Origin: Geobacter sp. DSM 9736
Lineage (GTDB): Bacteria > Desulfobacterota > Desulfuromonadia > Geobacterales > Geobacteraceae
NCBI RefSeq assembly: GCF_900187405.1
Contig: NZ_LT896716.1
Coordinates: forward strand, 3,720,753 to 3,784,752
Direction of reading: 5' to 3'
DNA length: 64,000 nucleotides
The notes beneath the pieces were generated by a model. It made no database searches and had not been told where the DNA came from. It was given only the letters and a program-made list of their open reading frames with translations. Shown here one piece after another: positions 29,611-40,275 of the stretch. How positions within the stretch are numbered: position 1 is the first letter of the stretch; every line of letters starts with the position of its first letter. The position numbers and the translations under genes are program-made.

Positions 29611-30165
29611 ATGCACATGAAAAAGCAGGTCAGCCTGAAGGAGATCTTTCGTGTCTTCTTCATCATCGGCGCCACCGGGTTCGGCGGCGGCATGGCCATC
29701 GTTTCGCTGACGGAGCGGGCATGCGTTCATGAAAAGGAGTGGCTGAGCCATGAGGAATTCATGCACGGCCTTGCTTTCGGACAGCTACTGGGGCCTTTTT
29801 CCCTCAATGTCGCCACCTTCGTCGGCTATTTCCTTCGCGGTGTGGCCGGGGGCATAGCCGCTGCTACAGGTTTCATCCTGCCGTCATTCTGCCTGATTAC
29901 GCTCCTTTCGGTCTTCTATTTCAGGTACCAGAAATTGCCGCAGCTCCAATCGGCTCTCAATGGAACCAATCCCGTCATTATAGCCCTGATTGTAGTGGCG
30001 GCACTGGGCATGGCGAAGAACCACATCAGGGACAGGAAGTCATGGGCAATGTCGGTCACGGCGTTTTTTGCCGCTGCGTTTCTGCATGTGAGCGGGCTGA
30101 CGATACTCGTGGCTGCCCTCCTCTGGACGCTGATAAGCGAGTATGCGAGAAGGGAGCATGTCTAG
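29611..30165 (+). CDS. chrA: Chromate transporter, N-terminal half (short ChrA)
   Basis: 184-residue membrane protein, one half of a split ChrA/CHR transporter. Motifs near the start: GATGFGGGMAIVSLTERACV and WLSHEEFMHGLAFGQLLGPFSLNVATFVGY. About five hydrophobic spans follow. Full-length ChrA is about 400 residues, so this gene and the next form the short-chain pair. The ATG at 29611 has no ribosome site; ATG at 29617 is an alternative. Confidence 0.88.
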   Translation: MHMKKQVSLKEIFRVFFIIGATGFGGGMAIVSLTERACVHEKEWLSHEEFMHGLAFGQLLGPFSLNVATFVGYFLRGVAGGIAAATGFILPSFCLITLLSVFYFRYQKLPQLQSALNGTNPVIIALIVVAALGMAKNHIRDRKSWAMSVTAFFAAAFLHVSGLTILVAALLWTLISEYARREHV

Positions 30166-30686
30166 TGGCAGGGCTCGCGGGAATCGCATGGACTTTTCTC
30201 AAGATCGGCATGATCTTCTTCGGCGGGGGTTACGTCCTGGTGCCGCTGCTGCACCGCCTCATGGTGGACGAGTATGGCTGGCTTTCCCTCAAGGAGTTTC
30301 TGGACGGCGTCGCCCTTTCCCAGCTCACTCCCGGTCCTCTCGCCATGCTGGCTACCTTTTCCGGCTTCCGCGCCGGAGGCTTCGCCGGTGGGCTTGTCGC
30401 CACCATCGCTATCTTTCTCCCCTGCACCCTCCTCATGCTCGCTATCTCCAGCCGCTATGAGAAATTCCGCTCCATGGAGCTCATCCGGAAATGCCTTGAT
30501 GGAATTCTGCCTGCTGTGGTGGGGCTCGTGGCTGCCGCGGCCTTCAATCTGGGAATGACTTCACTCTCGGCCCCGCCAGATTTCCTGCTCCTCTTCGCTG
30601 GAATGGCTCTTCTCCAGTTCACGAGAATCAGCCCCATGGTCGTCATCCTGGGGGCAGGGGCTATCGGTTACCTCTTCAGTTTCTGA
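30165..30686 (+). CDS. chrA: Chromate transporter, C-terminal half (short ChrA)
   Basis: 173-residue second half of the split transporter. Motifs: FLKIGMIFFGGGYVLVPLLH (about 10-29) and WLSLKEFLDGVALSQLTPGPLAMLATFSGF. These parallel the first half and reflect the internal duplication of the family. The start is a GTG whose G overlaps the last base of the previous stop codon; AAGGGAG lies eight bases before. The two halves probably assemble as a dimer. Transport of chromate is family knowledge; substrate and direction are not proven here. Confidence 0.88.
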   Translation: MAGLAGIAWTFLKIGMIFFGGGYVLVPLLHRLMVDEYGWLSLKEFLDGVALSQLTPGPLAMLATFSGFRAGGFAGGLVATIAIFLPCTLLMLAISSRYEKFRSMELIRKCLDGILPAVVGLVAAAAFNLGMTSLSAPPDFLLLFAGMALLQFTRISPMVVILGAGAIGYLFSF

Positions 30687-30752
30687 CCCCCGGCGCTTCT
30701 CCTCCAGACGGCCCCGGTTTCACCCCTTCCAGCGCTCTCCCGTCATACTCCC

Positions 30753-30780
30753 GAGGTTGCGCGCTTTATCCATAAACCTC
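30753..30780. promoter_or_regulatory. Inverted repeat upstream of the prkA promoter
   Basis: GAGGTT (30753-30758) and AACCTC (30775-30780) form a 6-bp inverted repeat with a 16-base spacer, 25 bases upstream of the -24 box. This is closer than usual for a sigma-54 enhancer site; it may bind another regulator. Confidence 0.25.
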
Positions 30781-30804
30781 AATAAAAATAAACACATTGG
30801 TGAG

Positions 30805-30820
30805 TGGTATCTGTTTTGCA
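30805..30820 (+). promoter_or_regulatory. Sigma-54 type promoter of the prkA operon
   Basis: TGGTATCTGTTTTGCA keeps the invariant GG (30806-30807) and GC (30818-30819) exactly 10 bases apart, with the TTGCA -12 box and TGG -24 box. Relative to the TGGCAC-N5-TTGCA consensus, two bases differ in the -24 part. It is 123 bases before the prkA start in a gap with no competing sigma-70 promoter. In E. coli the homologous yeaGH operon is reported to depend on sigma-54 and NtrC, which makes this more likely. Confidence 0.65.
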
Positions 30821-30942
30821 AAGGCAGGTCTTTTATGCCTTGCATATTCGAAAAGAAGATGTCTAGAATGAATTACCTGAGCTGTGGCTGAATCTAATTA
30901 TCAGTGGCCGATCCTATTTCGAATAGACGGGAGAAGACGAGT

Positions 30943-33000
30943 ATGACACAGAAAATTTGGACGCTGCATGACCATCTGTCGGCAGTAAAGGAAGGGACCC
31001 GGAGGTTCGAGAACGCTTTCCAGGGGGTCGCACGGATGATCCTTGAGGATGAAATCGAGAAGGTCGTGGTGAATGGAAAAACGACCTATGATTTCCGGAT
31101 TTTCCGCACCGGGAGGAAGCACACCATCGGGATGTACGACGAGATCAACAGCTTCGTCTCCTTCGTGAAGGATGCGGCGGAAGGGGGCTCCTCCAAAGAG
31201 ATGGCATACGTTCTCGTCGGCGAGCCGGGGAACGGGAAGACCTTCTTCGTCGAGCTTCTCTGCGCCAAGTACCGCAGCTTCCTCAGCCAGGATGCGAATC
31301 GCCGTTATACCTTCCGTTTCGTGAACATGGATCGGCTAGGGCACTACGGCAAGATCGCTTCCATCGAGTCACAGACCTACGAGGACCCGATGATTCTTGC
31401 CATGAACCTGTACGAGGACCGGGAGGAAAGCATACGTTTTCTGACGGAGAAAGCCGGCTTCAGCGACAAGGATGTCGAAAACGCTCTCGAAAACTACCGC
31501 CCCATGGGCGCCTGCAGCGGCTACATCTGGAACGACATCCGGGTCCATGCCGACGGCGATCCGGAGGAGATGCTCAAGTATGTCGAGATAATTCCGGTAC
31601 CGATGAGCGAAAGCCTCGGCACCGTGACCGGAAAATACCCGGCGAAGGACAAGATAACGTCGTCGGCGGTGGACCTCCTGGGGGAGGAATCGATCCAGCG
31701 CCTGCTTCACATCACCGACACCAATAATCCGTATCGTTTCGACCTGCGGCGAGGCGCGCTCGCCCGCGTTGCCGGTGGCGGGATCCACTTCAGCGACGAG
31801 ATCTTCAAGAACAAGAAGGACCTGGTCCAGGTCTACCTGGGCGTTATCCAGAACCGCGCCATCGAGATTGACGGCTTCAAGTGGCCAATCGACACGCTAA
31901 TCATAGCCACCAGCAACAACTCCGAGTTCAACCGCTTCCTGGCCGAGCGGGAGGAGGCTCCCATAGTGGATCGCTGCCGCATCTGCTACGTCTCCCACAA
32001 CACCAATTACCGGATGCAGGAGGGGCTTACCGCCTATGCCATCGGGAGCGAGTCGAAGACGACTCTCCTCAAGGAGTCGCTCCACCAGGACCCGAACCTC
32101 AACTATGCGGCATCCACCGCTGTGGTTCTTACCCGCCTCCCCCGCTCCGAAAAGCTCACCGCCATCGAAATGATGAAACTCGCAGCCGGGGAGGTGGCCG
32201 GGGAGAAGAGCATCAAGACACTCGCCGAGGTAATCGACACCCTGAGCCAGGACCCGGACATCACGAAGCGCTTCGGGCAGAAGGGGCTTGGGCACCGCAA
32301 CCTCGGCCGGGCGATCCAGCTCCTGGTGGAGAACTCGGAAACAAATGAGGGGCGCTGCATGATCGCCTACGACGTCTTCAGGACAATGGAGCGGGTCATC
32401 CTCGACTATGTGGTCGACCAGAACGACCGGGCGAAATTCCTTGAGGATCTCAAGATCGCCCGCGGCCTCTACCGCGAGCGGATCATGACGGAGATGTTCA
32501 ATGCATACATGGACGAGCCGTACGCCATCCGCAAGGACGTGATGAACTACGTCAACATGATTATCGGGATTGACGCCGAGAACCTCGGCCCCGACCGGAT
32601 GTGGAAGTACAAGGACCCGCAGACCGGCGAGCTGCGGGCGCTCAAGATCGACGAGCGGTACGTGAAGAGCGTAGAAGAGCGGATCGGCCTCAAGACAGAG
32701 GAGCAGCGGGAATCGTTCCGTACCTCCATCCGGAAGATCTACGGGCAGAAGATCTCGATGGATCCCAATTACGACTTCATGGACAACCTCGAACTCGTCA
32801 AGGCTGTCACCGACGTCCGTCTCAAGTCCGACATTGCCGGGGCGGGGAGCCTCATCGGGGCGCTGGCGAACCGCACCAACGAGGAGAACCAGAAGCTGTA
32901 TGACCGGATGATCAGCACCATGCTCGGTAAACTCGGCTACTGCCGCACGTGTGCGCAGAAGACGATCGAGTACTTCTGCACCCAGGTAGACGAAGGGTAG
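30943..33000 (+). CDS. prkA: PrkA-family AAA+ serine protein kinase (YeaG-like)
   Basis: 685-residue protein with the PrkA AAA+ domain and C-terminal PrkA domain. Walker A is GEPGNGKT (93-100) and the AAA core includes GGGIHFSDEIFKNKKDL and IIATSNNSEF. YeaG and B. subtilis PrkA are reported Ser kinases; the enzyme probably acts in stress or nutrient limitation, together with the next genes. The ATG at 30943 has GGGAGAAG upstream. An upstream in-frame GTG at 30904 is less likely because it is preceded by no ribosome site. It is 60 bases before the DUF444 gene. Confidence 0.93.
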   Translation: MTQKIWTLHDHLSAVKEGTRRFENAFQGVARMILEDEIEKVVVNGKTTYDFRIFRTGRKHTIGMYDEINSFVSFVKDAAEGGSSKEMAYVLVGEPGNGKTFFVELLCAKYRSFLSQDANRRYTFRFVNMDRLGHYGKIASIESQTYEDPMILAMNLYEDREESIRFLTEKAGFSDKDVENALENYRPMGACSGYIWNDIRVHADGDPEEMLKYVEIIPVPMSESLGTVTGKYPAKDKITSSAVDLLGEESIQRLLHITDTNNPYRFDLRRGALARVAGGGIHFSDEIFKNKKDLVQVYLGVIQNRAIEIDGFKWPIDTLIIATSNNSEFNRFLAEREEAPIVDRCRICYVSHNTNYRMQEGLTAYAIGSESKTTLLKESLHQDPNLNYAASTAVVLTRLPRSEKLTAIEMMKLAAGEVAGEKSIKTLAEVIDTLSQDPDITKRFGQKGLGHRNLGRAIQLLVENSETNEGRCMIAYDVFRTMERVILDYVVDQNDRAKFLEDLKIARGLYRERIMTEMFNAYMDEPYAIRKDVMNYVNMIIGIDAENLGPDRMWKYKDPQTGELRALKIDERYVKSVEERIGLKTEEQRESFRTSIRKIYGQKISMDPNYDFMDNLELVKAVTDVRLKSDIAGAGSLIGALANRTNEENQKLYDRMISTMLGKLGYCRTCAQKTIEYFCTQVDEG

Positions 33001-33060
33001 CGCGGGGACTGCAACGTTAGGTGTAGTTGATCAGGGCGGAACCCGGTTTGGAAAGAGCTA

Positions 33061-34437
33061 ATGGCAGATAGAATGAACAGACAGAATGAATTGTACGCCC
33101 GGCTGAAGGAGCGGGGGCTCGATCCGGAGCGGGAGAAGAGGATTCTCGCCGAGTTCCACGACGGGCGCAGCCACGACCTCCCGCCGGAATCCGGGGGGGG
33201 CGGCTTCAACCCAAGTCCCGGCTCCTTTTACGAGCAGGACGACCTGAAGGTGCTTCAGGACCTGTCACCTTACGCAAGCTACACCGCCTGCCTCAAGTCA
33301 CTGGACGAGCTGATGGAACGTGACCGGATGCGGGAGGAGGATGGCTTCCCCCGCAAGATCCGCATAGGCCGGCTGGTGAAGCCGGGCAAAGCGGGGAAGG
33401 AGAAGGTCGTGATCGTTCCCTCCACTGTGGAGGAGAAGTTCTATCACGACAAGGTGAAGCCGGCGACGGAGGAGGAAAGCGCTTCGGGAGGCAGCGGGGA
33501 AGGCCGGGAAGGGGAAGTCATCGGCGAACAGCCGGTGCGTCCTCAACAGGGTCAGGGAAGCGGCGGCGCGGGCCAGGGGGGTGAGGAATCCCACGATATC
33601 GAATCAAGCGCCTACGATCTGGGAAAGATACTCACCGAGAAATTCCAACTCCCCAACCTGAAGGACAAGGGGAAGAAACGCTCCCTTACCAGATATAACT
33701 ACGACCTCACCGACAAGCACCGCGGCTTCGGGCAGGTTCTCGACAAGAAAGCGACGCTCCGCAAGATCATCGAGAGCAATATCAGCCTGGGGAACCTTCG
33801 CGATCCTGATGATATCGATCCCTCCGGATTTCTCGTGGCTCCCAACGATCGGGTCTACCGGATTCTTTCCCGGGAGAAGGACTATGAGTCGCAGGCAGTG
33901 GTCTTCTTCCTGCGTGACTATTCCGGCTCCATGGAAGGTAAGGTTACCGATCTTGTAGTCACCCAGCATGTCATGATCTACAGCTGGCTCCTTTTCCAGT
34001 ATGCGAAGCAGGTGGAAACCCGCTTCATCGTCCATGACACGGAGGCGAAGGAGGTCCCCGATTTCTACACCTACTACAATTCACGTGTGGCGGGGGGGAC
34101 TCAGGTATCGACAGCTTACAAGCTCGTGAACGATATCGTGGCAAAGGAGAATCTGGCTGCCGACTATAACATCTACATCTTTCACGGCACCGACGGCGAC
34201 GACTGGGACAGCGAAGGTGATGCCTCGATCCCGGAGCTGAAGCAGATGCTCAACTACGCCAACCGGGTAGGCATCACAATCGCAGAGCACAGCTACAGCC
34301 GCAATACCGAAGTGGAGCGGTACCTGAAGGGCTCGGGGCTTCTCAAGGAGAAGCCGAATCTGCTCCGCCTCGACGTATTGGGAGAGGATTCCGAAGAGCC
34401 CCGCCTCATCGAGGGGATCAGGAAGCTGATGTCATAA
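33061..34437 (+). CDS. yeaH: DUF444 protein with VWA-like metal site (YeaH-like)
   Basis: 458-residue cytoplasmic protein of the DUF444/UPF0229 family. The second half holds a von Willebrand A-like domain: DYSGSM (about 285-290), a Thr in GGTQVST and an Asp in HGTDGDD are the expected metal-site residues. The middle (about 140-190) is low complexity, rich in Gly, Glu and Gln. The VWA domain suggests a partner-binding scaffold for PrkA and SpoVR, as reported for the E. coli YeaG-YeaH-YcgB set. ATG at 33061 with GGAAAGAG before it. Confidence 0.92.
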   Translation: MADRMNRQNELYARLKERGLDPEREKRILAEFHDGRSHDLPPESGGGGFNPSPGSFYEQDDLKVLQDLSPYASYTACLKSLDELMERDRMREEDGFPRKIRIGRLVKPGKAGKEKVVIVPSTVEEKFYHDKVKPATEEESASGGSGEGREGEVIGEQPVRPQQGQGSGGAGQGGEESHDIESSAYDLGKILTEKFQLPNLKDKGKKRSLTRYNYDLTDKHRGFGQVLDKKATLRKIIESNISLGNLRDPDDIDPSGFLVAPNDRVYRILSREKDYESQAVVFFLRDYSGSMEGKVTDLVVTQHVMIYSWLLFQYAKQVETRFIVHDTEAKEVPDFYTYYNSRVAGGTQVSTAYKLVNDIVAKENLAADYNIYIFHGTDGDDWDSEGDASIPELKQMLNYANRVGITIAEHSYSRNTEVERYLKGSGLLKEKPNLLRLDVLGEDSEEPRLIEGIRKLMS

Positions 34438-34468
34438 TAGGCTAAGGGTTTCGTTCGCTGCGCTCACA

Positions 34469-34515
34469 GGTTGAGGTCGAGGAATGAAGCCTCAACCTTA
34501 ACCTCAACCTTAACC
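34469..34515. repeat. Inverted and tandem repeat before spoVR
   Basis: GGTTGAGG (34469-34476) pairs perfectly with CCTCAACC (34490-34497). A tandem pair of CTCAACCTTAAC follows (about 34491 and 34503). The whole lies in the 88-base gap between the DUF444 and spoVR genes. Confidence 0.6.
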
Positions 34516-34525
34516 TGGACAGATT

Positions 34526-36169
34526 ATGGAACTTATCAACCAGCATACGAAAAGGATCATGGAGGGGTGCAAGGAGCGGGCTCGCAAGGCGGGACTCCGT
34601 TTTCAGGACGAGACCCTCGAATATATCGTTACAAACCGGGACATGATCGAGCTTTCACCGAAAGTGATGATCCCGACCCTCTACGACTACTGGGTCCACG
34701 ACGTGGAGATCCTGAAGGAAAAGGGGATGTACGAGCTCTATCCCCATAACCCCTACGAGACGGTCATCAACACCCGTCCACCGATCTCCTTCTATAACGA
34801 CAACAACCCGGACTGGCTCAACGTGATGATCTTCTATCACGTTCTCGCCCACATAGACTTCTTCCAGAACAACCTGTTCTTCCGGCATACATGGGATTAC
34901 GACTTCACCGGGCAGGCCCTCTCGGACAAGCGGCTCATCGCCAAGCTCCGCGGGGAGCACGGCCGCTGGGTCGATTACGTCATCGAGTTCGCACGCGGTA
35001 TCGACAACCTTGTCGGCTACCACCACGAGCTGTCCGAGCTGCACCGCCCTGAGGGGAAAGGGGTAGCAAAGAAGCTGGACTACTACTTCGACGTCTTTCT
35101 CCAATCGGTGAGACGGGTGCCGGTGACGGAATACATCAAGGAGATCAACCGCTACAACGACTGCGTCAAGCAGTTCGGCAAGCTCGGGGAGAAGACCTTC
35201 TTCGCCGACGCGGAACGGAAATACCCGGAGCTGGAGGCGCTCTACCTCAAGAATCTGGATGAAAAGCCGGTTCAGCGGAAGGACCTGCTCCAGTTCCTCA
35301 TGGACCACTCGGAATTCCTCAACCGGGATGCAAACAAGTGGATGAAGTCAGTCATAGAGGTCGTCCGCAAAACCTCCATTTTCTTCCAGCCGCAGATCAG
35401 GACGAAGATCATGAACGAGGGGTGGGCCAGTTACTGGCACGACACCCTTTTCCTGGCGGACGAGCGGATTCTGGGTCATGAGGTAGATTACGCCCGGATC
35501 AACGCCGGCGTGACGGCGATGCCGCGTGTAGGCCTCAACCCGTATGCTCTTGGTATGCGGCTCTTCAACTATGTCGAAGAGGCGGCGGAGAAGGGACGGT
35601 ACTCCTTCGACTTCCAGCGTCTGGCGAACCGGGAAGCGAGGAAGCAGTTCGATTCGGGAGCCGGGGGCGGAAAGGAGTACATCCACCGGGTCCGGGAGAA
35701 CATGTGCGACTTTACCTTCATCAGAACCTTCATCGACCAGGATTTCGTCGACCGCCACAAGCTCTTCGTGGCAGGCAAGCGCCTGAACCAGCAGCGGATG
35801 GTGTGGGAGTATTACGTGAAGAGCCGGAAGGCGGAGGACTACAGGCAGATGGTGCTCGATTCTCTCTACCATCCCCCTTTCATCGAAGTGGATCCGCGGA
35901 GAAACATCGCGGGGAACCTCTACCTGGTGCATCACTTCGAGGGGAAGCCGCTCGTCAAGGACTACATAGCCGCCACCATGCGGGGAATCGAGTTCTTCTG
36001 GGGAGGCCCCGTCATTCTGGAAACCAGTGAAATCGTCCCGCCACCACAAAAGGAACGGGGGGACGCGGCCGAGGGTAAAGAGCCTGAAATCCACTGGCAG
36101 CGGGTACGGTATACTATGAAGGACCGGAAACTGGAGCATGAGGCAGCACACGAATCGAGGAGCCGGTAG
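34526..36169 (+). CDS. spoVR: SpoVR family protein (YcgB-like)
   Basis: 547-residue soluble SpoVR/YcgB protein. Family features: the WDYDFTGQALSDKRLIAKLR segment, the block HMGW-like MNEGWASYWHDTLFL near residue 293-307, and GLNPYALGMRLF. SpoVR takes part in cortex formation in Bacillus; in non-spore-formers it travels with PrkA and DUF444, as here. Length is normal (about 510-550). The ATG at 34526 has a weak GGA site. It ends 16 bases before the second PrkA-type gene. Confidence 0.93.
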   Translation: MELINQHTKRIMEGCKERARKAGLRFQDETLEYIVTNRDMIELSPKVMIPTLYDYWVHDVEILKEKGMYELYPHNPYETVINTRPPISFYNDNNPDWLNVMIFYHVLAHIDFFQNNLFFRHTWDYDFTGQALSDKRLIAKLRGEHGRWVDYVIEFARGIDNLVGYHHELSELHRPEGKGVAKKLDYYFDVFLQSVRRVPVTEYIKEINRYNDCVKQFGKLGEKTFFADAERKYPELEALYLKNLDEKPVQRKDLLQFLMDHSEFLNRDANKWMKSVIEVVRKTSIFFQPQIRTKIMNEGWASYWHDTLFLADERILGHEVDYARINAGVTAMPRVGLNPYALGMRLFNYVEEAAEKGRYSFDFQRLANREARKQFDSGAGGGKEYIHRVRENMCDFTFIRTFIDQDFVDRHKLFVAGKRLNQQRMVWEYYVKSRKAEDYRQMVLDSLYHPPFIEVDPRRNIAGNLYLVHHFEGKPLVKDYIAATMRGIEFFWGGPVILETSEIVPPPQKERGDAAEGKEPEIHWQRVRYTMKDRKLEHEAAHESRSR

Positions 36170-36185
36170 AGAGGCTATCTCTGCG

Positions 36186-38489
36186 ATGGAACCGACAATG
36201 TCCAATATCGATAAAGCACTTCAGCATCTGAGCCGGGTCATTTCCGAACAGGAGCATGTCTCTCCCATCACCTACGACGGATTCCTCGCGGAGCTGACGG
36301 CGAAGCCGCAGATGACTATCCGCAACGTCTTCCAGCTCTTCTACGATATGATCAAGAACTATGTCGGCGAAGGGATGGACGAGTATCCCGACGACCCGGA
36401 AACCATCAATTACGTCAACTATGACACCCGGCGACTCTTTGTCGAAAACTCGGACCAGCCGTTTTTCGCGGACCGTCTTTTCGCAAACCGCCTCGTGAAT
36501 CACGTGGAGGCGATGCGGCGCGGCAAGCAGCAGAACAAGATATACATCTTCGAGGGGCCAGCAGGGTCGGGTAAGAGCACCTTTCTAAACAACCTGCTAA
36601 TGAAGTTCGAAGAGTACTCCAACACTGAGCAGGGACTAACCTATGAGACGGTCTGGCGGCTCGACAGGAAAATCCTTGGGAAGTTCGCGGAGCACGAGGT
36701 GTCGAACTTTCTCGACAAGCTGGCCAGCCTCCTTGACCAGTACGAGCTGAGCCAGCAGCAGATCATAGAGGCGAGGGAAACGCTCGTCGGCACACAGGAC
36801 TTCGTCGAGGTCCCCTGTCCGAGCCACGACCACCCCGTCCTGATGATTCCGAAGCATCATCGGCGCGCCTTCTTCGACGACCTCTTCCGAAACGACGAGT
36901 TCAAATGGAAGCTCTTCACGGACAAGGAATTCGACTGGGTCTTCCGTAACAACCCGTGCACGATCTGCAGCTCCCTCTATCATGCGCTTCTGGACCGGGT
37001 ACAGAACCCCGTGGAGGTCTTCTCCATGATCTATGCACGCCCGTTACGCTACAACCGGCGGCTCGGCGAGGGGATCAGCGTCTACAACCCGGGCGACAAG
37101 CCGATGCGGCAGAACGTGCTGACCAACGAGCAGCTCCAGAAGAGGATCAACGAGCTTCTGCGGGACAGCAACCAGGTGAGGTACATCTACTCCCAGTTCG
37201 CCAAGACCAACAACGGCATCTACGCCCTCATGGACATCAAGTCTCACAATGCGGAACGCCTCATAGAGCTGCACAACATCATCAGCGAAGGGCTTCACAA
37301 GGTCGAGGACATCGAGGAGAATGTAAATTCCCTCTTTCTCGCCCTGATGAATCCCGAGGACGAGGTGGCCATCCAGGAGTTCCCATCCTTCTCCGACCGG
37401 ATCGAGTTCATCAACATTCCGTACATCATGGACCTGAACACCGAGGTGGAGATATACCGCAACATCTTCGGGCGTCACATCGACGACAGCTTCCTCCCGA
37501 GGGTGCTACACAATTTCGCCCGGGTCATCATATCCACCCGCCTCAACACCAAGTCGGACGCGCTTCTGGAGTGGATCGTCGATCCAGAGAAATACCAGCT
37601 CTACTGTGACCAGAACCTGCAGATCCTGAAAATGGAGATTTACACCGGGTTCATTCCGAAGTGGCTTGCAGAGGAGGACCGTAAACGGCTTACGGCGAAA
37701 CGCCGGCGAAAGATCATTTCAGAATCGGAGATGGAAGGGGATCACGGTTTTTCCGGACGTGATTCAATCAAGATATTCAACGACTTCTACTCCGCCTACG
37801 CCAACAAGGGGAAGCTCGTCAACATGTCGATCCTGTGCAACTTCTTCACCAAATGGCGCAAGGATCTAACTCCGGCCATCCCCGAGGGCTTCATAGATTC
37901 TCTCCAGCGAAACTACGATTACACGGTTCTGCAGGAGGTGAAGGAGTCGCTCTACTACTACAACGAGGAGCAGATCTCACGCGATATCCTGAACTACATG
38001 TTCGCGGTCAATTTCGAACATGGGACCGTCGAGACCTGCAAGTACACCGGGGAGAAGCTGGAGATAACCCACGAGTTCCTCATAAACCTGGAAAACCACC
38101 TGCTCGGGATGGTGGTGCCCATCGAGAGGCGCCTCGCCTTCCGGAAAGAGACCCAGAAGGAATACACTACGAAGACTTTGACGCAGGAAATGATGGTGGA
38201 AGGCCGCAGCGCGACGGAAACTGGCCTGTATCAGTCTCTCCTGGAGCGCTACGTTTACAATATCAAGGAGAAGGTGCTGGATCCATTCCTGGAGAACACG
38301 AACTTCAGGAGAGCGATAAAGGATTTTGATACCGATGCGTTCAAGACCTACGACAAACGCATCCGGAGCGACGTGACCTTCCTCATCAACAATCTCGGGA
38401 ACAAGTACCGTTACACCAAGCAGGGGGCGAAGGAGGTCTGCATCTACGTCATAGACAACGACCTCGCCAAGAAGTTCGCAAACTCCTAG
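36186..38489 (+). CDS. Second, divergent PrkA-type AAA+ protein
   Basis: 767-residue protein, 82 longer than the PrkA at 30943. Walker A is GPAGSGKS (124-131). A PrkA-like C-terminal region follows, with FSGRDSIKIFNDFYSAYANKGKL near 520-542 and a short conserved end. It is clearly a different gene from prkA, with little visible identity outside the AAA core, so it may be a kinase, a regulator of PrkA, or an adaptor. Start: ATG at 36186 (GAGAGG upstream) or ATG at 36198 (GGA closer); an ATG at 36138 would overlap the spoVR end. It is followed by a hairpin and a bidirectional terminator. Confidence 0.85.
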   Translation: MEPTMSNIDKALQHLSRVISEQEHVSPITYDGFLAELTAKPQMTIRNVFQLFYDMIKNYVGEGMDEYPDDPETINYVNYDTRRLFVENSDQPFFADRLFANRLVNHVEAMRRGKQQNKIYIFEGPAGSGKSTFLNNLLMKFEEYSNTEQGLTYETVWRLDRKILGKFAEHEVSNFLDKLASLLDQYELSQQQIIEARETLVGTQDFVEVPCPSHDHPVLMIPKHHRRAFFDDLFRNDEFKWKLFTDKEFDWVFRNNPCTICSSLYHALLDRVQNPVEVFSMIYARPLRYNRRLGEGISVYNPGDKPMRQNVLTNEQLQKRINELLRDSNQVRYIYSQFAKTNNGIYALMDIKSHNAERLIELHNIISEGLHKVEDIEENVNSLFLALMNPEDEVAIQEFPSFSDRIEFINIPYIMDLNTEVEIYRNIFGRHIDDSFLPRVLHNFARVIISTRLNTKSDALLEWIVDPEKYQLYCDQNLQILKMEIYTGFIPKWLAEEDRKRLTAKRRRKIISESEMEGDHGFSGRDSIKIFNDFYSAYANKGKLVNMSILCNFFTKWRKDLTPAIPEGFIDSLQRNYDYTVLQEVKESLYYYNEEQISRDILNYMFAVNFEHGTVETCKYTGEKLEITHEFLINLENHLLGMVVPIERRLAFRKETQKEYTTKTLTQEMMVEGRSATETGLYQSLLERYVYNIKEKVLDPFLENTNFRRAIKDFDTDAFKTYDKRIRSDVTFLINNLGNKYRYTKQGAKEVCIYVIDNDLAKKFANS

Positions 38490-38507
38490 GTTATTGAAAA
38501 ATAACCT
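38488..38507. other. GAAA-loop hairpin at the end of the prkA operon
   Basis: AGGTTATT and AATAACCT form a perfect 8-bp stem closed by a GAAA tetraloop, starting at the stop codon. No T run follows, so it is more likely a 3' end stabiliser than a terminator. Confidence 0.5.
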
Positions 38508-38534
38508 GCTAGGTCGGGAGTATGTGTAGATGAA

Positions 38535-38574
38535 CGCAAAAAGGCCGCACCGTGAGGATGTGGCCTTTTTTGCG
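38535..38574. terminator. Bidirectional rho-independent terminator
   Basis: CGCAAAAAGGCC and GGCCTTTTTTGCG arms form a stem of about 12 bp closed by a short G+C-rich extension (GCACC...GATGT). With A and T tracts on both sides, it can end transcription of the prkA operon (plus) and of the small-protein gene at 38599 (minus). Confidence 0.85.
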
Positions 38575-38598
38575 TCTTGCTGTTTTCTCGTAGCTTCG

Positions 38599-38841
38599 TC
38601 AGATGTTGGACTTCACTCGGGCCTGCTTTTCCCGTGCTGACGCCGCCGTGCTCTTTATCATGCCCACGAGGGTGATGATGGCCGGGATCAGCTGGGCCAC
38701 AACGACCAGGGCACAGAAGCCGAGGAAGACAAGGACCAGGATGCCGCTCGAGTAGACCTTGGTGGTGGAAGCGGCGAATGCCGGGGTAGCTGCCGTCAGT
38801 GCAAGAGCGAGGGTGGTGATAACAGTGCGCAGGGTTTCCAT
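38599..38841 (-). CDS. Small secreted/membrane protein, copy 1
   Basis: 80-residue protein with a signal peptide (about 1-23, ending AFA-AS) and one long hydrophobic segment (about 33-61: ILVLVFLGFCALVVVAQL). The tail is short and basic. I do not recognise the family. It is a close paralogue of the next gene upstream: both share L-GF-AL----QL-P-----V-M-K in the hydrophobic segment. The ribosome site AAAGGAGG is nearly perfect. The strong site and signal peptide argue that this is expressed. Confidence 0.7.
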   Translation of the reverse strand: METLRTVITTLALALTAATPAFAASTTKVYSSGILVLVFLGFCALVVVAQLIPAIITLVGMIKSTAASAREKQARVKSNI

Positions 38842-38888
38842 GATGTACCTCCTTTAGCCGATTGGCTGCGATATGGATGTTGTACTTC

Positions 38889-39131
38889 TCAACGGTTTCG
38901 GTTGCTGGCGGCCTGTGCCTGTGCAGGCTCCCCTTTGCTGAAAGCGCCTTTCAGCATCGACACGAACAGCAAAACGCCGGGGAAGAGCTGCAGGGTGATT
39001 ATCAGGGCGCCGAACCCCAGGAACAGAATGGTCAGCAACCCCATGCCGTCGTTCTCTGCACCGCTGGCGGCGAATGCAGTTGTGGCCGATCCTATTGTTG
39101 CCGCTGTCGTCAATCTTCCGATGGCTTTCAT
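38889..39131 (-). CDS. Small secreted/membrane protein, copy 2
   Basis: 80-residue paralogue of copy 1, with the same order: signal peptide (ending AFA-AS at about 22), hydrophobic segment (about 32-61: LLTILFLGFGALIITLQL), short polar tail rich in Ala, Gln and Asn. The ATG at 39131 is preceded by AAGGAGGGTGAT; an upstream start frame reaches 39209 but has no such site. A tandem duplication produced the pair. The function is unknown; the size and topology fit a small membrane subunit or a secreted peptide. Confidence 0.7.
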   Translation of the reverse strand: MKAIGRLTTAATIGSATTAFAASGAENDGMGLLTILFLGFGALIITLQLFPGVLLFVSMLKGAFSKGEPAQAQAASNRNR

Positions 39132-39453
39132 GATCACCCTCCTTGCTGGTTTGTTGCCGACCTTGCCCTTTATTGTGCATCGGCTGTGCCGAGAGTAGAA
39201 AACATTCATAAATAAATCATAAATAATTGATTTTAGTGATTAATCAGGGTTACGCGCCACTAGCCCTGCCTGGATGGATGAAGCGCAAAAGTATAGGAAA
39301 ACGATACTAAATTTGATGCGAGCGGTAGGGATTGAGGGGCGATCCGGAAGTTTGCATCAGTGATTTCGGGGGGTTATGAGGAGTATGGTATGTATGTGCC
39401 ACACATACATCTGTACAACTGGGTGGTGCATCAAAATATACACGCTGTTGCTG
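39132..39453. other. 322-base gene-free region
   Basis: The longest gene-free stretch in the window. It contains an AT-rich segment (about 39205-39245), a TCGGC-TGT-GCCGA mini-hairpin (39180-39192) and a perfect inverted repeat at 39390-39410. It lies upstream of the small-protein genes and downstream of the deacetylase gene (all minus strand). No conserved riboswitch or tRNA pattern is recognised. Confidence 0.6.
39390..39410. promoter_or_regulatory. Perfect 9-bp inverted repeat
   Basis: ATGTATGTG and CACATACAT, with a 3-base spacer, form a perfect dyad. No T run follows on either strand. It may be a transcription-factor site; its distance from the small-protein start is 259 bases. Confidence 0.45.
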
Positions 39454-40275
39454 TTACTGAAGCGCTACATCGGAGAGGCGTACAAAACGGAAACCGCGGC
39501 GTTTCAGTTCGGGGACCGCATCCATGACTCCGTCCGCAGTGCCGCTTCCTGGGTGGTTCATGTGCAGGATCACGATATCACCAGGCTTTGCCGCGAGCAG
39601 CGCACGGCGCACCTGTTCCCGCGAGAAGGTCGCGCCGGCGTCTCCCAGGAGCGAGAACCCGACCACTTCCATTCCGAGGTCCGCTGCAATCTTTACCGCG
39701 ACCTCGTCGTAATATGCCGTTCCGGAGCGGAAGTAACGTGGGCCATGCCCGGTTACTTCTGAAAGCTTCCGGTTGTTCAGCTCGATCTCATCCACCAGTT
39801 CCGAGATGTTCCGGGTTCCGGCGATCCCGTACGCCTGCCTGCCGTTGACCGAAGCCGGACGGTGGTGCAATCCGTGGTTGGCTATTTCGAAGAGGGGGTT
39901 TGCGGCCAGCCGCTGCAAGGTGCTCCGGTTAGGGCCGACCCACCTTGCATTGATGAAGAGGGTTGCGGGAACCTGCTCTTGCTCCAGGAATTCGACGAGG
40001 CGCTGGTCAATGCCGATCCCCCTGGCGCTGCCACAGGCGTCGAGGGTGAGAGCGATGAGTTTGTCAGTGCCGCTGATGCGGGTTTTCACGCCGGGTACAA
40101 CCTCTCCCCACAGCTTGGGTGAAATATTCCCATAACGTTCGGTAAGCATCTTCTTTGCCGGCTGGAACGGGTCTGTGGACACCGAAATGTCTGTATTGGA
40201 GAGAGCTGCCGATATGGGCGGAGCGACGGCTGTAATTGCGGCCAACGTAAGGACGCCGAGATACTTCCTGTACAT
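39454..40275 (-). CDS. Divergent polysaccharide deacetylase (NodB-type)
   Basis: 273-residue exported protein with a signal peptide (about 1-24). A NodB-like fold is indicated by LTLDACGS (about 75-82), where the usual TFDDG motif is altered to LDACG, and the metal-binding pair in NHGLHHRP (about 133-140). The C-terminal GDIVILHMNHPGSGT is the usual motif 5. It is likely to deacetylate or hydrolyse an extracellular polysaccharide; catalytic activity is uncertain because motif 1 is changed. The ATG at 40275 has a GGAAAGGA site. Nothing nearby defines the substrate. Confidence 0.82.
   Translation of the reverse strand: MYRKYLGVLTLAAITAVAPPISAALSNTDISVSTDPFQPAKKMLTERYGNISPKLWGEVVPGVKTRISGTDKLIALTLDACGSARGIGIDQRLVEFLEQEQVPATLFINARWVGPNRSTLQRLAANPLFEIANHGLHHRPASVNGRQAYGIAGTRNISELVDEIELNNRKLSEVTGHGPRYFRSGTAYYDEVAVKIAADLGMEVVGFSLLGDAGATFSREQVRRALLAAKPGDIVILHMNHPGSGTADGVMDAVPELKRRGFRFVRLSDVALQ

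Follow-up and report, generated by a model that had tools for sequence, protein, structure and literature searches.

Two-motor form of the PrkA-DUF444-SpoVR stress system in Geobacter sp. DSM 9736

Why would a bacterial operon encode two PrkA-type AAA+ proteins alongside DUF444 and SpoVR? The question arises from a 64,000-nucleotide stretch of the Geobacter sp. DSM 9736 genome (contig NZ_LT896716.1, positions 3,720,753 to 3,784,752; hereafter the window), in which prkA, a DUF444 gene, spoVR and a second PrkA-family gene, here called A, D, S and B, follow one another (Table 1). That these four genes lie on one strand at 30943-38489 was part of the original prediction, made from the sequence of the window, and the gene coordinates and the Pfam matches agree with it. 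The locus is the two-motor form of the PrkA-DUF444-SpoVR stress system, a form that we name type II, and it is widespread and sharply conserved. Type I denotes a single PrkA, type II the A/B pair and type III a distant pair, A' and B'.

Two PrkA genes in a conserved operon

Both PrkA models of Pfam match A (PF06798, 136.8 bits; PF08298, 51.1 bits) and B (183 and 33.9 bits) above their cut-off of 25 bits, and B carries the Walker A motif GPAGSGKS at residues 124-131, which bears out the description of B as a PrkA-related AAA+ protein. D and S match DUF444 (PF04285, 124.3 bits) and SpoVR (PF04293, 208 bits) above the curated cut-offs. A PF06798 search of the 3.96-Mb Geobacter sp. DSM 9736 genome, for which Haloferax volcanii served as a matching control, found no PrkA gene besides A and B. 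The canonical PrkA equivalog model, NCBIfam PRK15455 (threshold 576 bits), gave just 45.9 bits for A and did not list B. An alignment with E. coli YeaG, suggested as a check in the original prediction, showed A to be 20.3% and B 15.8% identical to it.

Table 1. Features of the operon and its flanks (positions in the window)
Feature	Positions	Strand	Description
prkA (A)	30943-33000	+	685 aa (GTG start at 30904 is an alternative); Walker B FSDE; C-terminal CxxC...C
DUF444 (D)	33061-34437	+	458 aa; complete VWA metal ion-dependent adhesion site (MIDAS): D286, S288, S290, T347, D378
spoVR (S)	34526-36169	+	547 aa; H105xxxH109 and E298
Second PrkA-family gene (B)	36186-38489	+	767 aa; Asp at the Walker-B Glu position; CPxH/CxxC cluster present; C-terminal CxxC lost
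Candidate sigma-54 promoter	30805-30820	+	TGGTATCTGTTTTGCA; -24/-12 spacing; 12.5 of 15 on an ad hoc consensus score
Inverted repeat with CCTCAACCTTAA tandem repeat	34468-34516	+	Between D and S; dispersed genomic element
Bidirectional terminator-like inverted repeat	38534-38575		Arms 38538-38549/38559-38570; outer arms A-rich and T-rich

A scan of named genomes gave at least 61 loci, in Geobacteraceae, other Desulfobacterota and metagenome-assembled genomes (MAGs) of several groups; these loci are a sample, and phyla are given as labelled in the database records, many of which are MAGs. The MAG labels among the matches listed were Aminicenantes, Chloroflexi, Fibrobacter, Krumholzibacteria, Bacteroidetes, Ignavibacteriales, Riflebacteria and Niyogibacteria. 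For the 96 B loci among the matches listed, the genes on one strand read A-D-S-B in 75 and A-D-S-S-B in two, with SpoVR in two open reading frames (ORFs); the others were D-S-B (nine), S-B (six) and B alone (four), most of which run off the contig. Where at least 5 kb lay upstream of B, the order was A-D-S-B in 75 of 76 loci among the matches listed, or in 74 of 75 once the duplicate L071/L107 was removed; two of the 75 are phage loci. The fourth gene, whose random occurrence or absence from most relatives with the first three would have spoken against the original prediction, is linked to the first three. The single exception (L161, genome G446) has A, S and B on three contigs and retains both A and B, as does G300, in which A and D lie 40 kb from B. 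At L132, D was not detected within the 1.6 kb that precede S. The operon of G178 is split (L088, L089 and L090 on contig 1), the contig end truncating B, whose C-terminal piece lies at ~1.34 Mb on the same contig; this is probably a misassembly, and G178 was not used as evidence. A fifth conserved operon gene was looked for and rejected: no flanking family held a constant place, the commonest occurring at scattered distances in 12 loci and the second commonest in 6 loci, mostly of one related group. Neither B nor B' had a match in the plasmid collection at the E-value limits applied, which distant copies may escape.

The pair was followed through several genome samples. In the Geobacteraceae sample, PrkA was found in 34 of 48 genomes, 32 of which had at least two matches with A- and B-type scores; the two exceptions with one match (an A in G004, a B in G043) are each ~70% complete, the G043 contig being 5.3 kb long and the gene order of G004 running off the contig end. 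The phylum sample, in which classes were assigned by score and length, contained a match in 56 of 395 genomes (28 type II, 23 type I, four type III and one below the cut-off). A and B were both present in 27 of its 28 type II genomes, and the exception (G280) is 78% complete with a contig that ends inside D. Seven of 296 genomes matched in the Bacteroidota sample, comprising five complete type II operons (G444 and four more), one match below the cut-off and G619, whose single PrkA is accompanied by DUF444 and SpoVR but not by B. In the phylum of G440, 59 of 297 genomes matched, mostly with single PrkAs; clear type II pairs occurred in G440 and G759, and a type III pair in G941. Of the 39 genomes in the phylum of G443, 15 matched; seven of these had linked pairs of A/B-like lengths and spacing, namely G443 and six others whose assignment used size and spacing only. 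In G1040, a type I gene accompanies an A whose contig ends just after D. Overall, genomes with one canonical PrkA have no B, whereas every type II A that could be traced downstream is accompanied by one. Two of the 23 type I genomes (G123 and G325) each carry two single-type PrkA genes on separate contigs. At L224, L225, L229 and L230, PrkA-like genes (725-992 aa) stand as orphans, neither DUF444 nor SpoVR being detected in their vicinity; the gene at L230 scored best with the B profile.

Two PrkAs in a DUF444/SpoVR setting are already known: a 2011 study of haloarchaea described two PrkA-related genes, adjacent to each other and always with DUF444 and SpoVR (PMC3102087; here and below, statements on cited papers refer to the passages available from them). 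Calling the Geobacter locus an undescribed system, as the original prediction did, is therefore too strong. The haloarchaeal cluster, set beside A and B by its description only, resembles the operon in its content and differs from it in that its two PrkA genes adjoin, whereas D and S lie between A and B here. In the open-access literature, we found on a bacterial two-PrkA operon only this haloarchaeal statement and a Haloquadratum paper with the word prkA2 in its listing (PMC9684190); subscription journals and preprints lay outside the scope. Neither the asymmetry of A and B nor four-gene phage copies, both described below, were found in the open-access literature.

Complementary motifs in A and B

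Class-specific residues were counted in ORFs 500 aa or longer; as duplicates were removed by comparing part of the C-terminus, near-identical or duplicate records may remain. L035_I, a mis-called ORF, was excluded from the tree and from later counts, and G304 and G525, which fall below the cut-off, were left unclassed. At the catalytic Walker-B position, Glu was found in 27/27 type I proteins and in 78/78 A proteins (as DE, the last three rows being scored by eye), and Asp in 108/108 B proteins. A separate alignment that included both phage copies showed Met-Asp at the Walker B of B in 38/38 sequences, and D285, E286 and Cys 667, 670 and 679 were invariant in 20 of 20 A proteins. The other AAA+ residues are retained. 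Across all classes, the Walker A Lys and the DR-motif Arg (the arginine finger) are invariant, and the sensor-1 Asn is present in every row except one gapped B row. In A, these three residues and the sensor-2 Arg are each present in 78/78; in B, each is present in 108/108 except the sensor-1 Asn (107/108).

This pattern bears on whether B might be a regulatory or inhibitory PrkA pseudo-ATPase that restrains A or DUF444 and is no motor subunit. The uniform Asp at the catalytic position, together with the ATP-binding residues, is what such a protein would be expected to show. The (near-)invariant arginine finger, sensor 1 and sensor 2 go beyond what a simple inhibitor would presumably need, and we consider a purely restraining role for B unlikely.

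The Cys clusters divide the two proteins further. An AAA-domain cluster (CPxH and CxxC, scored by regular expression) was found in 22/27 type I and 107/108 B proteins and in 0/78 A, and a C-terminal CxxC in 26/27 type I and 77/78 A proteins and in 0/108 B. A and B have each lost one of the two Cys clusters of a single PrkA, reciprocally and in type II only. This is the strongest argument from sequence, and it suggests that A and B act together. Of the three roles that had been offered for B (partner, antagonist or second kinase with another target), partner is the best choice, B being tied to A, D and S by linkage.

A and B could instead be independent PrkA motors that share DUF444 and SpoVR and serve different clients or different times. 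The two proteins are strongly divergent, with 15.3% identity over 609 aligned columns and no significant BLASTP match to each other (E 0.96); a profile comparison gave an E-value of 6e-5 and a probability of 65 over 242 columns. Mean column identity in the same 20 genomes is lower for B than for A (66% vs 81%), and the two genes lie apart in G300 and G446. Their near-strict co-occurrence, conserved order and reciprocal motif losses nevertheless suggest mutual dependence, which makes separate motors a somewhat unlikely arrangement, though one to be kept in view.

DUF444, SpoVR and a candidate heteromeric motor

The MIDAS residues of DUF444 listed in Table 1 are invariant in 9/9 proteins across all types compared. 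The two His and the Glu given for SpoVR are invariant in 10/10 proteins across types, including E. coli YcgB and the protein of phage YS40, and in 40/40 type II proteins. These residues look like a putative metal site, in which the HxxxH motif lacks the glutamate of HExxH. A model of SpoVR (predicted local distance difference test, pLDDT, 76.7) gave as the first row of a second look the zinc peptidase ACE2 (Z 7.2, 175 aligned, root-mean-square deviation (rmsd) 4.7), the other rows being unrelated; the ACE2 match can be taken as a hint only. Searches of solved structures by sequence gave chance-level matches only for SpoVR and none for DUF444. The sole PrkA match among solved structures was 9xip/9xiq/9xir ('Serine protein kinase', 692 aa, 30 chains over the three entries), whose alignment shows a single-type Walker B and a C-terminal CxxC. 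Entry 9xip was absent from the fold-search rows for B (library to 2026-04-08), and no paper on these entries was found in the open-access literature.

Three known systems offer comparisons. The type I system (PrkA/YeaG, DUF444/YeaH/YhbH and SpoVR/YcgB) has in common with the present one a MIDAS-bearing DUF444, the H/H/E residues of SpoVR and the AAA+ core residues of PrkA. Its genes are also linked, adjoining at L098-L101 and nearly so in Thermus phage YS40. It differs in having one PrkA, which mostly bears both Cys clusters and a Walker-B Glu without a preceding Asp, where type II has two PrkAs, of which B carries Asp. Among MoxR pairs, NorQ-NorD sets an AAA+ motor gene beside a MIDAS-bearing VWA-type gene, as here, and is required for metal insertion into its target (PMC13036017, PMC9976466). 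The present operon differs in encoding two distinct AAA+ proteins. No MoxR-specific Pfam model was listed for A or B, A being marginal on AAA_5 (22.7 bits vs a cut-off of 22). In magnesium chelatase, an active AAA+ subunit (BchI) is paired with a degenerate one (BchD), to which a VWA domain is fused. This active/degenerate pairing with a VWA domain resembles the proposed roles of A, B and D, with the difference that B has no VWA domain among its Pfam matches. An alignment-based AlphaFold2 model of B (mean pLDDT 85.9) was superposed first on ChlI of magnesium chelatase (Z 10.4, rmsd 3.3, 192 aligned), tied with Lon and ClpC.

We favour, with a probability of about 0.5, a heteromeric A/B AAA+ motor that acts through DUF444 on SpoVR. 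A and B would form one heteromeric ring or a stacked ring, in which A would hydrolyse ATP and B would bind ATP, give arginine fingers and hydrolyse slowly or not at all. The ring would work via DUF444 as a VWA adaptor with an intact MIDAS and, by analogy with NorQ-NorD, would remodel SpoVR or load metal into it. The retention of both A and B even where they lie apart speaks for this motor. Physiologically, it may serve adaptation to starvation or stress, the role described for YeaG/YeaH. The E. coli yeaGH promoter is bound by NtrC, and deletion of either yeaG or yeaH shortens the lag after nitrogen starvation (PMC4664914); from these reports a starvation role of the A-D-S-B operon is a reasonable guess.

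Several points weigh against such a motor. Co-occurrence of A and B is no proof of a complex. The change from Glu to Asp in B may slow hydrolysis and not abolish it, and type I PrkAs themselves lack the Asp before the Walker-B Glu. With Foldseek, the B model had no match at E <= 0.001, and its fold match appears to be to AAA+ proteins in general; the SpoVR model likewise had no confident fold match and no Foldseek match at E <= 0.001. Reported activities also point elsewhere: the phosphorylation of AceA by YeaG, in vitro and with malate (PMC8055822), and the protease activity that PMC13001217 cites for B. subtilis PrkA. In antimicrobial-peptide resistance, yeaH and ycgB were reported to matter and yeaG not, the ycgB part being unpublished (PMC2375023), and a dispensable yeaG fits poorly with an obligatory motor; another source reports that yeaG and yeaH both matter (PMC4664914).

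In the two-kinase arrangement of the original prediction, A and B would be Ser/Thr kinases that differ in their targets and share a VWA scaffold. Besides the reported phosphorylation of AceA, PF06798 carries the name of a kinase domain, and E. coli YeaG K426A, used as a kinase-dead mutant, fails to complement (PMC4664914). At the K426 position, however, Lys is found in just 17/27 type I and 55/108 B proteins; all 78 A proteins have Arg there, and all seven type III proteins have Asn. Four residues earlier, an Arg is present in 220/220 PrkA proteins (R525 in B), in a GxxxR-like context that we take to resemble AAA+ sensor 2, and the superpositions of B on Lon reach ~residue 564, beyond R525. 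We infer that the first part of PF06798 is an AAA+ lid. For the purified B. anthracis protein, neither kinase nor protease activity could be detected, and it has no kinase P-loop (PMC13001217). With Lys in 0/78 A at the K426 position, the upstream Arg in 220/220 proteins and the AAA+ residues near-invariant, the two-kinase reading is poorly supported. The K426 count removes it as the leading view, and we give it very little chance.

That A and/or B might be unfoldases feeding a protease, or Lon-like proteases themselves, is suggested by the superpositions of the B model on Lon and ClpC (Z ~10), by the cited protease activity of B. subtilis PrkA and by a ClpP-like gene between A and D in one phage operon. 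The B. anthracis protein, cleanly purified, showed no protease activity (PMC13001217), and no protease gene recurs in the bacterial flanks. Such a function is improbable, and the heteromeric A/B motor remains our preferred reading.

Origin, phage copies and flanking elements

A type III operon was found in five genomes (G068, G246, G269, G331 and G941; loci L082-L085 and L226) with the order A'-D'-S'-B', A' being ~740 aa and B' ~832-863 aa long. Gene order and the Glu/Asp asymmetry are the same as in the Geobacter sp. DSM 9736 operon in the four genomes compared, with Glu in 4/4 A' and Asp in 4/4 B'. Of the two Cys clusters, A' has only the C-terminal one (3/3), and B' has neither (4/4). The relationship is very distant, DUF444 scoring ~90 bits and SpoVR ~76 bits against the Geobacter sp. 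DSM 9736 proteins. In the tree, whose branches are long, a single branch sets each of IIA, IIB, IIIA, IIIB and I apart from the rest, and IIB joins IIIB at a support of just 84/61; holding IIA and IIB together was not rejected by the approximately unbiased (AU) test (p-AU 0.143). IIB and IIIB share insertions, as judged by eye, and the Asp, and these shared features favour, and do not prove, a common origin of B and B' in one ancient duplication, as against two.

Two IMG/VR contigs (G447, locus L163, and G448, locus L164) carry all four genes in the order A-D-S-B. One phage contig of 56 kb also encodes a major head protein and a tail sheath, and the other, of 41 kb, a portal protein and a virion structural protein. 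The ClpP-like protease gene between A and D lies on the second phage contig (L164, 4657-5223). The phage copies indicate that the four-gene set is movable as a unit. In the named phage collection, no match to B was found at the E-value limits used, which distant copies may escape. Thermus phage YS40 has a single-PrkA set (L200, 43648-57300) that comprises DUF444 (YS40_056), SpoVR (057), an unrelated 616-aa protein (058) and PrkA (059). YS40_058 was considered as a hidden second PrkA and set aside, as it has no significant match to any PrkA class. Ralstonia phage RsoM2USA is reported to encode PrkA and SpoVR (PMC8504454).

The operon had also been described as bounded by a sigma-54 type promoter and a bidirectional terminator. 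Upstream of A, TGGTATCTGTTTTGCA is a plausible sigma-54 promoter in Geobacter sp. DSM 9736. Its conservation was assessed in 77 relatives with an ad hoc consensus scheme and plain shuffles as the null. Sites scoring at least 12 occurred in 14 of 77, where the shuffles predict 3.6 and the reverse strand has 1, and sites scoring at least 10 showed no clear excess (49 vs 42.6 expected, 56 on the reverse strand). The site is not conserved in most relatives, and a sigma-54 promoter is not supported as a conserved property of the operon. Downstream of B, bidirectional terminator is a fair description of the inverted repeat with its A-rich and T-rich outer arms; a consensus terminator scan confined to loops of 3-8 did not list the inverted repeat at 38538-38570. 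An Rfam search over 30000-39500 gave no match. AACCTT hexamer arrays, related to the tandem repeat between D and S, lie at 1-95 and 3957589-3957683, the two ends of the 3.96-Mb contig, and look like a circle opened within an array.

A bolder form of the proposal joins these lines. An obligate A/B motor with division of labour, born by duplication of a single PrkA and fixed by the reciprocal losses of Cys clusters and by the loss of the Walker-B Glu in one subunit, would mature the metal site of SpoVR with DUF444 as its MIDAS adaptor, and phages would carry the four-gene machine as a means of controlling dormancy or recovery of the host. This extension is tentative, and we hold it to be possible but doubtful.

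The role of PrkA, DUF444 and SpoVR has been clouded by conflicting reports of kinase activity, protease activity and no activity. The splitting of the PrkA job over two proteins with complementary losses shows which features go with one another, and, judging by the motif counts, what is called the kinase domain starts as an AAA+ lid. If the bolder proposal is true, PrkA would be a metal-loading or remodelling AAA+ machine and not a kinase.

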